Below are positions 7,740 to 11,357 of a DNA stretch of 41,552 nucleotides, piece after piece. Every line of letters starts with the position of its first letter. Position 1 is the first letter of the stretch. Source of the stretch: Chthoniobacter flavus. GTDB taxonomy: Bacteria > Verrucomicrobiota > Verrucomicrobiia > Chthoniobacterales > JACTMZ01. The translations under genes were made by a program, and so were the position numbers. The notes under the pieces were generated by a model. The model was given only the letters and a program-made list of their open reading frames with translations. It was not told where the DNA came from and did not search any database. Location of the stretch: the NCBI GenBank assembly GCA_945871065.1, contig CAMBUL010000016.1, forward strand, positions 1 to 41,552, in the 5' to 3' direction.

Positions 7740-7748
7740 TCCGGAGTG

Positions 7749-9311
7749 ATGCACCGCCCTGCGACGGAAAGTTGGTCCACCCAGATCGGAGTCATCCTTG
7801 CGGTGACTGGCAGCGCGGTGGGCCTGGGCAATTTCCTGCGCTTCCCCGGCCTGGCCGCCAAATACGACGGCGGGGTCTTCCTCATTCCCTACTTCGTTGC
7901 CCTTCTCCTTCTTGGTTTGCCCCTCGCTTGGGCCGAGTGGTCGATGGGACGCTACGGGGGGACGCGCGGATACCATTCGTCGCCCGGCATTTTCCGGCTC
8001 ATCTGGAAGAACCGTGCCGCTCCCTATCTGGGTGTCCTCGGCCTCGTCGTGCCGGTGGTGATCTACATGTACTATGTCTTCGTCGAGTCATGGTGCCTCG
8101 GCTACGCGTGGTATTACCTCACCGGGGCAATGGACCTCGGACGCGATCCCGTGGCCTACCAGAACTTTTTTACCGCTTACACGGGGAGCGAGAAAGATGC
8201 TTCGATCTTTTCCAGCTTCCTCGGAACGCCGCTGGTTTTTCTCGTCATTTGCATCGCGCTCAACTTTTTCCTGATCAATCGGGGACTAACCCGCGGGATC
8301 GAACTTTTTTGCCTTTGGGCCATGCCGGCCCTCGCCCTGTGCGCCGTCCTCGTGCTTGTCCGTGTGCTCACCCTCGGCACGCCGGACCCTTCCAGGCCGG
8401 AACTCAATGTCCTCAACGGTCTCGGCCAAATGTGGAATCTCGATGCGGGCGGCAAATCGGTCTGGGCGCAACTGGCCAACGGCAAGATGTGGATGGAGGC
8501 TGCCGGGCAGATTTTCTTTTCACTTTCCGTCGGCTTCGGCGTGATCATCACCTATGCGAGCTACATGCGCCGCGACGATGACATTGCCTTGAGTTCGACC
8601 ACCGCCGTGGCGGGCAACGAATTTTTCGAAGTGTCGCTCGGTGGTATGATCACCATTCCAGCGGCTTTCATTTTTCTCGGTGCCGCCGGCACGGTGGGGG
8701 GAACCTTTGCGCTCGGGTTCAACACCTTGCCGCTGGTTTTTGAACACATGCCGCTCGGGCGTTGGGTTGGTTTTCTCTGGTTCTTCCTCCTCTTCCTGGC
8801 CGCCATCACCAGTTCGCTCTCCATGTTGCAGCCGGCCATCGCCTTCCTTCAGGAGGGCCTCGGGCTGACCCGCACCCGTGCCGTGGCTGTGCTCTGCGGG
8901 GTGGGTACGGCTGGCACCCTGCTTGTCGTTTGGTTCAGCAAGAATCTCACGGCGCTGGACACCCTCGATTTTTGGGTCGGCACCTTCTGCATTTATCTGC
9001 TGGCCTGCGTGCAGACTTTCCTTTTCGGCTGGGTCTTTGGCCCGCAGCGCGGGTTGGAAGAACTCGATCGCGGGGCCGACATGCGGTTGCCGCGCCTCTT
9101 CACCTTTGTGATCAGATACATTTCCCCGGTCTACCTGCTTGTCGTTTTCGTGGCGTGGGCCGTGCAGGATGTGGGCAACCGCATTGCGGTGTTCACCGAG
9201 GATCCGGCGGTGCGCTGGACGATGCTTTTTCTCGTGGCGGTTTTGGCCCTCTTTCTATGGTGGATCCGGTTGGCGGTGAAACGTTGGCATGCGGAGGAGG
9301 CGGCATCATGA
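7749..9311 (+). CDS. Sodium-dependent neurotransmitter symporter (NSS/SNF) family transporter
   Basis: Inner-membrane Na+-coupled amino-acid transporter (about 520 aa) with the LeuT fold and roughly 12 hydrophobic segments. The N-terminus has the NSS signature WSTQIGVILAVTGSAVGLGN followed by FLRFPGL, where LeuT binds sodium and the amino-acid carboxylate. The exact substrate cannot be deduced. The ATG at 7749 directly follows a GTG at 7746 in the same frame, so either could be the start. Its stop overlaps the start of the 61-aa gene at 9308 by 4 nt, the arrangement of MetP-MetS in Corynebacterium, which suggests a methionine/alanine-type importer. Confidence 0.93.
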   Translation: MHRPATESWSTQIGVILAVTGSAVGLGNFLRFPGLAAKYDGGVFLIPYFVALLLLGLPLAWAEWSMGRYGGTRGYHSSPGIFRLIWKNRAAPYLGVLGLVVPVVIYMYYVFVESWCLGYAWYYLTGAMDLGRDPVAYQNFFTAYTGSEKDASIFSSFLGTPLVFLVICIALNFFLINRGLTRGIELFCLWAMPALALCAVLVLVRVLTLGTPDPSRPELNVLNGLGQMWNLDAGGKSVWAQLANGKMWMEAAGQIFFSLSVGFGVIITYASYMRRDDDIALSSTTAVAGNEFFEVSLGGMITIPAAFIFLGAAGTVGGTFALGFNTLPLVFEHMPLGRWVGFLWFFLLFLAAITSSLSMLQPAIAFLQEGLGLTRTRAVAVLCGVGTAGTLLVVWFSKNLTALDTLDFWVGTFCIYLLACVQTFLFGWVFGPQRGLEELDRGADMRLPRLFTFVIRYISPVYLLVVFVAWAVQDVGNRIAVFTEDPAVRWTMLFLVAVLALFLWWIRLAVKRWHAEEAAS

Positions 9312-9493
9312 CGCTGAGCGGATGGATTATTATGCTGCTCGCGGTGGGCGGCACGACCGGGTTCTTCTTCTGGTGCATCTACCGCGTGCTGCGGTCGCCG
9401 GGCAAGACGGACAAGATGCACGGCGTGCTCGATACTGAACTCGAGATTGAAGACGAGGAGCGCAAACGCCGCCGCGAAGGACAGGGGAACTGA
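9308..9493 (+). CDS. Small single-TM protein, MetS-like NSS transporter subunit
   Basis: A 61-aa protein with one N-terminal membrane segment (WIIMLLAVGGTTGFFFWCIY, about 6-25) and a short charged cytoplasmic tail ending EDEERKRRRE. It begins inside the stop codon of the NSS symporter (ATGA overlap), so the two are co-translated. By size, topology and position it matches the small MetS-type subunits that accompany some bacterial NSS transporters. Sequence identity to MetS cannot be claimed from reading alone. Confidence 0.75.
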   Translation: MTLSGWIIMLLAVGGTTGFFFWCIYRVLRSPGKTDKMHGVLDTELEIEDEERKRRREGQGN

Positions 9494-9756: not shown

Positions 9757-9779
9757 AAAAACCCTCACCGCGGGTTTTG
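9757..9779 (-). terminator. Putative terminator of the SBP-TRIC gene
   Basis: Arms AAAACCC and GGGTTTT around a 7-base loop. Read on the minus strand the hairpin ends in GGGTTTTT, an intrinsic-terminator shape that overlaps the stop codon at 9765-9767. Confidence 0.45.
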
Positions 9780-11357
9780 ATCCTGCCGGTCGGGCGGAGC
9801 AGTGGCGGCCATGAGAGGACTGCGCAGTCCGAACCGCATGACCAGCAGACGGGTGGCCAAAGCGCCTAAAATGGTCGCCACCACCCCCAACCAAACCTCG
9901 GTGAGGTTGAGACGGCCGGCTTCCCAGATAAGAAAGAGCGAAAAGAGAAAGCCCCAGAGCACTGCAACCTCGGGGTAAAAACTTCCTTTGAGGTTGGAAT
10001 TGTTGGAATCGGCGCGGACGACATCGCGGATAATGCCTCCACCCGCTCCGGTCAGCGCAGCCAGCAACGGGCCCCACAGCCACAGCGGTTCGCATTGTTG
10101 CTCCACAGCGACAACGACGCCGATGACGGTGAAGGCGGAGAGGCCGACGGCATCAAAAAAGAGATAGATGTTGGAAGACAGTTGGACGCCTTGCACCGAA
10201 TCGGACGCGACGCCTCTTTTTCCGAGGTAATCGGTCACCTTGTAAGCCAGAGCCCCGGCCAGAACCGTAGCGAGTATAACGTAGAGGTAGATTGGAGACG
10301 CGACCACGGCGAGCGGCGAGCGACCGGAGATAAGGTCGCGCAGGACCCCGCCGCCGACCGCGGGCAAACTCGCGAGAACAAAAGCGCCGAAGATGTCATA
10401 GTGCTCCCGGCGCGCGAGAAGGACGCCAGAAATGGCGAACGCGACGGTGCCGACGATATCGAAGAGGTGAAACCACGTTCTCTGCACGGTGATGGCGAGC
10501 AGCACGGGCATGGCGTAGTGCCTGAGGATCATGTCGTATTCCCCGGAAGCTTTCAGCTGCTGCAAGCCCAGATTGAAGGCCTCGACGTCCCGCGGCGTGG
10601 TGGATTTTTTGCCGAACATCACGTGGATGTCCGCGGCAAAGACGGGAATTTTATGCTGACTTATCTGTCGCTGCACGCCGGCCCGCCAAGCCACGGCCGC
10701 GACAACCAAACGGTCGGCGATGAAGGCGTCGATCTCTCCCTTGAGCAGCCTCGAAAGGTTCGTGTTGTCCGTGTCGGCGTAAAAGATGCGGTCGGCATTG
10801 GCCGGATCGAGGGCAAAAGCCTTGACGTCCGGACCGTAAAAAAATCCGCTGACCAGACCGACCCGCATCCCGGAAGCGGACAACGCGGCCAGAAGGTCTT
10901 TCACATTGGAGGCGGGCAACCGGTCTTGATCCGCGCGCCGCGTGACGAGCACATCTGTTTCGGTGCGGTAGGGATGGGAAAACCAGGCATACTCCTCTCG
11001 CTCCGCCGTCTTGTAGGCACCGGCTGCGATGTCCCGTTCCCCGTTCTTTATTTGCTGTTGGTGCTCTATCCAGTCTATTTGCTCATAGGAAACAGTGCTC
11101 CCTGTTTCGGCGAGGATGCGCGTGACCATCTGGATATCCAGTCCCCTCAACTCGCGCAGGGGTCCGCGGTTTTCCTCGAACTGGTAAGGATCCCAACGAT
11201 ACCATCCACCGCGAAGCTCGCGTCCTTTTTCCTGCGCGCCTTGGGTGGTGGTCGCCGCGAGAGCGAGGACGGAGACAACTAGAGAAAGAACGCACCTTAT
11301 GCCGGGTAGAGTTCTCAAAGCGGATCTACCAAAGTCCGTAGGAAGCTTGGACCGCAA
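9765..11357 (-). CDS. Fusion of periplasmic solute-binding domain (SBP_bac_3) and TRIC-family cation channel
   Basis: A 530-aa protein of two parts. Residues 1-40 form a signal peptide (CVLSLVVSVLALAATTTQG). Residues about 45-285 are a family-3 amino-acid-binding fold: GGWYRWDPYQF, LRGLDIQMVTRI, GERDIAAGAYKTAEREEYAWFS, MRVGLVSGFFYGP, LLKGEIDAFIADR, VMFGKKST. Residues about 295-510 are a complete UPF0126/TRIC domain of about seven membrane segments with the internal repeat signatures DIVGTVAFAISG...GGGVLRD (335-341) and DAVGLSAFTVIG...GGGIIRD (439-445). Bacterial TRIC proteins are usually about 200 aa with only the channel part. The layout resembles a ligand-gated channel: a periplasmic clamshell fixed to a K+/cation pore. 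The start is TTG at 11357; a TTG at 11318 would give a shorter signal peptide. What it binds and conducts is inference. Confidence 0.88.
   Translation of the reverse strand: MRSKLPTDFGRSALRTLPGIRCVLSLVVSVLALAATTTQGAQEKGRELRGGWYRWDPYQFEENRGPLRELRGLDIQMVTRILAETGSTVSYEQIDWIEHQQQIKNGERDIAAGAYKTAEREEYAWFSHPYRTETDVLVTRRADQDRLPASNVKDLLAALSASGMRVGLVSGFFYGPDVKAFALDPANADRIFYADTDNTNLSRLLKGEIDAFIADRLVVAAVAWRAGVQRQISQHKIPVFAADIHVMFGKKSTTPRDVEAFNLGLQQLKASGEYDMILRHYAMPVLLAITVQRTWFHLFDIVGTVAFAISGVLLARREHYDIFGAFVLASLPAVGGGVLRDLISGRSPLAVVASPIYLYVILATVLAGALAYKVTDYLGKRGVASDSVQGVQLSSNIYLFFDAVGLSAFTVIGVVVAVEQQCEPLWLWGPLLAALTGAGGGIIRDVVRADSNNSNLKGSFYPEVAVLWGFLFSLFLIWEAGRLNLTEVWLGVVATILGALATRLLVMRFGLRSPLMAATAPPDRQDQNPR

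Follow-up and report, generated by a model that had tools for sequence, protein, structure and literature searches.

A solute-binding domain fused to a TRIC domain in Verrucomicrobiota and Alphaproteobacteria: a putative receptor-controlled channel or transporter

The Fusion Gene and Its Surroundings

The window, that is, the whole stretch of 41,552 nucleotides of Chthoniobacter flavus DNA that was analysed, encodes on its minus strand (11357–9765) a protein of 530 residues with a probable signal peptide, a family-3 solute-binding protein (SBP) domain and a seven-transmembrane (7-TM) TRIC/UPF0126 domain. The original prediction of a single 530-codon frame at 9765–11357 was borne out, with the frame on the minus strand; the plus strand of the same interval is interrupted by stops. 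The features of the gene are as follows.

9765..11357, minus strand: whole fusion gene, 530 codons, TTG start at 11357, stop at 9767-9765
11229..11357, minus strand: probable signal peptide, about residues 1-43, with a basic start and a hydrophobic core in the translation VLSLVVSVLALAA
10509..11213, minus strand: family-3 solute-binding domain, residues 49-283, from PF00497 and the PDB matches 6h30, 4zef and 3hv1
11000-10998, minus strand: codon of Arg120, in the TxxR motif, kept in 35/36 fusions
10715-10713, minus strand: codon of Asp215, kept in 29/36 fusions (Asn in 5, Ala in 2)
10470..10517, minus strand: junction, residues 281-296 (Y..P284...W295 F296), of constant length
10245..10466, minus strand: TRIC repeat 1 (TM1-TM3), PF03458 77 bits, model helices 294-317, 322-343 and 355-379
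10355-10335, minus strand: GGGVLRD, residues 335-341, in TRIC repeat 1
9933..10160, minus strand: TRIC repeat 2 (TM4-TM6), with Asp402 and Tyr461, PF03458 46.1 bits
10071..10088, minus strand: fusion-specific PLWLWG motif, residues 424-429, periplasmic TM4-TM5 turn
10043-10023, minus strand: GGGIIRD, residues 439-445, in TRIC repeat 2
9969..9971, minus strand: fusion-specific Glu463, beside the cytosolic lock

The TTG start is preceded by an AGAAAGG stretch; upstream of it the frame stays open to 11405, with no other start codon used. Residues 1 to about 43 were judged by inspection to be a probable signal peptide, and in one pair of sequences this stretch had a dN/dS of about 1, compared to 0.1 elsewhere. 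Among close relatives, dN/dS was 0.04–0.16 for the SBP half and 0.07–0.10 for the TRIC half; both halves are under purifying selection.

The fusion gene has a co-directional DUF309 gene upstream of it and, as its other neighbour, a convergent gene for an SNF-family Na+ symporter (7746–9493, plus strand). The end of the symporter gene is overlapped by an ORF of 61 residues (9308–9493), which we take to resemble the small subunit that partners MetP-type symporters of bacteria. A regex scan for ABC ATPase signatures found none within 5 kb (less at contig ends) of 24 fusion loci, including that in the window, in agreement with the original observation that no such gene is adjacent. Elsewhere in this genome, one further contig carries an amino acid ABC permease and ATPase, and yet another carries a free SBP. 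With no ATPase close by and the ABC permease and ATPase of the genome located elsewhere, we rejected the idea that the fusion is part of an ABC importer. It does resemble the GlnP-type SBP–permease fusions of such importers (PDB 6h30, 4zef) in that a related amino-acid-binding domain precedes a membrane domain; however, the membrane domain is TRIC rather than BPD_transp_1, and an ABC ATPase is absent from the vicinity.

The Solute-Binding Domain

Residues 55–281 matched PF00497 (SBP_bac_3) with 64.5 bits (E = 1.1e-17; Pfam cut-off 26.4). A phmmer search of the PDB matched the SBP half to the amino-acid-binding protein 6h30 (E = 5e-13) and also to 4zef and 3hv1. Its closest relatives among the PDB matches are the SBPs of ABC importers, several of which are permease-fused. 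Two attempts at prediction with AF2 gave low confidence for this half, with pLDDT below 50 for most residues. Thus, the family-3 fold originally proposed stands on the Pfam and PDB sequence matches, while the model did not add to it.

In family-3 SBPs, an Arg and an Asp hold the carboxylate and amino groups of the bound amino acid. Arg120 and Asp215 of the fusion align with the TxxR motif and the Asp of solved amino-acid-binding proteins, and 3hv1 and 4ohn have the same Asp–Arg pair. A loss of these residues across the family, considered in the original prediction as a possible objection, was not what we found (Arg in 35 and Asp in 29 of the 36 fusions). Seven of the 36 nevertheless lack Asp215, suggesting that amino acid binding need not be a property of every member.

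The TRIC Domain

PF03458 occurs twice in the fusion protein (102.9 bits, E = 8.3e-30, Pfam), and both repeats score above the curated cut-off. In phmmer searches of the PDB, the TRIC half matched the prokaryotic TRIC structure 5wuf (E = 6e-17). The AF2 model, predicted as a single chain, has seven long helices in this half (residues 294–317, 322–343, 355–379, 388–419, 425–448, 462–479 and 485–509), and its only Foldseek matches at E < 0.001 were prokaryotic TRICs (5wud, 5wuf, 5h36 and others), with TM scores of 0.79–0.86 by target length. These results agree with the complete TRIC domain that had been predicted, and its two GGGxxRD motifs are located where they had been placed, at residues 335–341 and 439–445.

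The fusion thus has the two PF03458 repeats and seven TM helices of the prokaryotic TRICs (SaTRIC, CpTRIC, RsTRIC and SsTRIC; UPF0126, E. coli YadS/EcTRIC), together with the GGGxxRD kinks in TM2 and TM5 and the D-R-D-Y lock. The kink residues G336 and G440 are present in all 36 fusions. The cytosolic lock of SaTRIC is made up of D99, R139, D140 and Y155 (PMC5477506); in the fusions it corresponds to Asp402 (35/36), Arg444 (35/36), Asp445 (34/36) and Tyr461 (33/36). The fusions conserve pore glycines and lock as well as the bare TRICs do.

There are also differences from the bare TRICs, which are about 200–210 residues long and have no binding domain. Trp428, within the PLWLWG motif, is present in 36 of 36 fusions and in none of 24 bare TRICs, while Glu463, two residues past the lock Tyr, is invariant in the 36 fusions and mostly Thr or Ser in the bare proteins. 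Position 449, equivalent to the three-fold-axis Asn of SaTRIC (N144, a modulatory ion site), is Asn in only one of the 36 fusions, and a Pro close to this site that is invariant in the 24 bare TRICs is lost in the fusions. Since SaTRIC N144R and N144A still conduct (PMC5477506), this loss leaves membership of the TRIC fold family intact. Gating of the fusions may, however, be unlike that of known TRICs. The absent Asn, the PLWLWG motif and Glu463 go together with a separate branch in the TRIC tree (see below).

The Junction between the Domains

The connection between the last SBP helix and TM1 (residues 278–297) showed zero length variation in 36 of 36 proteins. After removal of near-copies, the longest gap-free stretch in the alignment of the remaining 32 proteins was 79 columns (residues 253–331), and it runs across the domain junction. 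Indels usually collect at domain junctions, and the gap-free junction therefore suggests, as judged from the SBP–TRIC fusions alone, that the two domains are mechanically constrained and not loosely tethered. The constant junction favours a reading in which the SBP gates the pore.

The positions conserved in the fusions only also appear to cluster. By a side assignment that combines the published TRIC topology with the model helices, 11 of the 15 fusion-only positions lie on the periplasmic side (W295, F296, P355, V414, L425–P430, L476), compared to 3 of the 20 positions conserved in both fusions and bare TRICs (p = 0.0012) and 68 of 221 overall (p = 0.0006); the boundaries were set post hoc, and six of the positions are adjacent and non-independent, and we treat the clustering as supportive only.

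Distribution and Descent

The fusion is present in some freshwater Verrucomicrobia and in several Alphaproteobacteria. Five other genomes of the window's genus carry it, one of them as a stop-broken copy; the nearest copies within the genus are about 92–97% identical, and that of another species (G008) is 39% identical. Other families of Verrucomicrobiota are represented by G164, G190, G1074, G1078, G1104, G1284, G1295, G1307 and G1326, with four copies in G1284. Full-length fusions were found in 14 of 385 sampled genomes of the Alphaproteobacteria, the class of L007, several as tandem or paralogous pairs, and sampling of 398 genomes from the phylum of L007 gave zero additional fusion genomes. 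Viral contigs yielded only bare TRICs and, likewise, no SBP half, and plasmids contained no full-length fusion. In the window's own genome and eight other fusion-bearing genomes, the fusion was the sole TRIC gene found; G007, of the same genus, has a bare TRIC.

The original prediction had left room for homologues that are separate genes, with the fusion a local misassembly. Instead, the search across genomes recovered intact fusions from separate assemblies in two phyla. The pairwise distances of the SBP and TRIC halves are correlated (Mantel r = 0.70; the maximum of 2000 permutations was 0.29), and the two halves therefore appear to have been inherited together. Misassembly is ruled out by more than 30 independent intact homologues, and we attach practically no weight to an artefact of this kind, including read-through of two separate genes, given that dN/dS was 0.04–0.16 in both halves. 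The one sequence that points towards it is a 92% identical copy (L006:4001–5809, from G010), in which TAG replaces the codon of the junction Trp in frame and the sequence breaks again near residue 500; it is either a decaying gene or the product of sequence errors in its assembly.

A tree built from 60 TRIC domains is divided by a supported branch (SH-aLRT 98) into the bare TRICs on the one hand and, on the other, the 33 fused TRICs with two stand-alone TRICs, L100 and L101. The latter two may have lost the SBP half, or may be related to the fusion's ancestor. We considered whether L101 had a different long N-terminal domain, but what lies upstream is an MFS-like gene that overlaps it in another frame, and the TRIC is treated as stand-alone. 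Two of the copies from G1284 (Verrucomicrobiota), G1284c and G1284d, are nested in the alphaproteobacterial group, a placement that suggests horizontal transfer.

A TRIC domain behind a binding protein of the NMT1/THI5 type, instead of family-3, is encoded by L102:6362–8197 (minus strand), from the class of L007. In the TRIC tree, its domain does not group with the fused clade, and its branch is long and weakly placed. L102 is likely to be a second, independent SBP–TRIC fusion.

Free-standing family-3 SBPs that score 150–190 bits against the fused family occur in other Pseudomonadota (L076, L077, L078 and L079). No TRIC gene was present in the 13–14 kb inspected around them.

Cytosolic Extensions and Partner-Switching Genes

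Seven to eight of the sampled fusions have an additional cytosolic C-terminal extension of 156–243 residues, the shortest of which is cut by a contig end. The extension looks helical by its sequence. Searches of Pfam and, by profile, of the PDB assigned it to no family and gave it no credible relative, and they lent no support to the idea that it is PhoU-like.

Directly before the fusion, G1326, G1307 and G1295 (the last two are congeners) encode a STAS protein and an RsbW-like protein of the HATPase_c_2 type; the genes of G1295 (L123) were recognised by their likeness to those of G1307. Near the fusions of G1326 and G1307 there are, in addition, genes for a Cache/HAMP/SpoIIE phosphatase and for an SBP of the NMT1 type. 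These loci (L112:5570–12876 in G1326 and L113:1584–7412 in G1307) encode fusions with extensions of roughly 210 residues. The STAS, HATPase and SpoIIE genes beside the extended fusions are components of a partner-switching system, and the SBP–TRIC protein is a possible input or target of this module. The gene in the window has no C-terminal extension and no partner-switching (SpoIIE–STAS–HATPase) genes beside it. The signalling context of the extended branch likewise favours gating.

A Model for the Fusion Protein and Its Alternatives

Taken as a whole, the fusion appears to represent a type of receptor-controlled channel or transporter that has not been described before. The explanation that we prefer, and for which we consider the chances to be nearly balanced, is that it is a periplasmic amino-acid receptor rigidly joined to TM1 of a ligand-responsive TRIC pore. 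Three protomers would assemble via the TRIC domain. An amino acid would close the clamshell through Arg120 and Asp215, and the movement would pass through the last SBP helix, with its fixed length, and the linker to TM1. It would also be transmitted by contacts with the fusion-specific periplasmic surface (W295–F296, P355 and PLWLWG). A resulting shift of the cytosolic lock (Asp402, Arg444, Asp445 and Tyr461, together with the fusion-specific Glu463) would change the cation conductance.

The basis of this model is sequence: the architecture, its conservation, the fixed junction, the kept binding and lock residues and the clustering of residues. We infer the topology (with the N terminus outside) and the trimer from knowledge of TRIC structures; we likewise only infer the amino acid as ligand, the gating and the cations as the passing species. 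Of the ligand-gated channel in the original prediction, the sensor-on-pore architecture fits with the co-inheritance, the kept ligand residues, the fixed junction and the topology, and gating and channel function are a hypothesis. Beyond that prediction lie the variants with cytosolic extensions and with partner-switching neighbours, the TRIC behind a different type of SBP, and the lost three-fold-axis Asn. A wider reading, which we think rather unlikely, is that an amino-acid clamshell gating a TRIC pore represents an independent architecture of ligand-gated channel that has spread between phyla, and that the cytosolic domain of one lineage is wired to SpoIIE–STAS–HATPase, so that the pore would be controlled from both sides of the membrane.

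The fusion might alternatively serve uptake, with TRIC/UPF0126 as a small-amino-acid (glycine-type) permease to which the SBP delivers substrate, in a GlnP-like but ATP-free manner. UPF0126 genes are important for glycine use in 11 bacteria by mutant fitness, and their products are predicted glycine transporters (PMC12173739); Pfam itself names PF03458 Gly_transporter. The SBPs nearest to the fused one serve ABC importers and are in several cases joined to permeases, and an NMT1-type SBP on the TRIC of L102 would fit a changed substrate. We regard this as a serious possibility, though a doubtful one: K+ conductance has been measured for bacterial TRICs in bilayers (PMC5477506), a swinging carrier would be expected on a flexible tether rather than at a junction of constant length, and one branch, with its cytosolic extension and partner-switching neighbours, looks like signalling. 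Those same observations, that is, the 156–243 residue extension of seven fusions and the STAS/HATPase_c_2 genes of G1326, G1307 and G1295, could instead mean that the protein is a receptor without relevant flux, its TRIC fold acting as a transmembrane coupler to cytosolic partners such as the STAS/HATPase module. SBPs do act as periplasmic sensors in BvgS and in an EAL protein. However, the pore glycines and cytosolic lock are conserved as in bare TRICs, and the window's protein has neither extension nor partner-switching neighbours, and we consider a pure coupler improbable.

The preferred model of a receptor-controlled pore has partial counterparts in known systems. GluR0 and other prokaryotic homologues of ionotropic glutamate receptors (PMC2950845) embody the same idea of a periplasmic clamshell of the family-3 type that controls a pore in the membrane. 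The binding domain of GluR0 is split in two by its pore, which consists of two helices and a P-loop, whereas the SBP domain of the fusion is contiguous and is followed by the seven-helix TRIC domain. The fusion was accordingly rejected as a member of the GluR0 group, its SBP domain being unsplit by two TM helices and a P-loop. In BvgS and the EAL protein 7ejg, which were among the PDB matches, the periplasmic SBP is a sensor and not a free carrier, but their output is a kinase or phosphodiesterase rather than a 7-TM pore domain. The fusion architecture is undescribed in the open literature that we searched; subscription journals and domain-architecture catalogues were outside the scope of this search, and the catalogues may list it.

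The role of bacterial TRIC proteins is disputed between a K+ channel, by electrophysiology, and a glycine transporter, by genetics. A sensor–TRIC fusion with a fixed junction, present in two phyla, offers a direct handle on this conflict, as one can measure both what the SBP binds and how this ligand affects flux. If the ligand gates cation flux, the fusion would be a ligand-gated channel with no relation to glutamate or Cys-loop receptors; should the ligand instead cross the membrane, the fusion would be a new type of ATP-free, SBP-fed uptake system.

Tandem SBP–TRIC pairs were seen at L108:5526–8843, L110:4908–9441, L111:5175–8538, L114:4891–8251 and L124:4588–7993. The two members of a pair could combine into mixed trimers or respond to different ligands.
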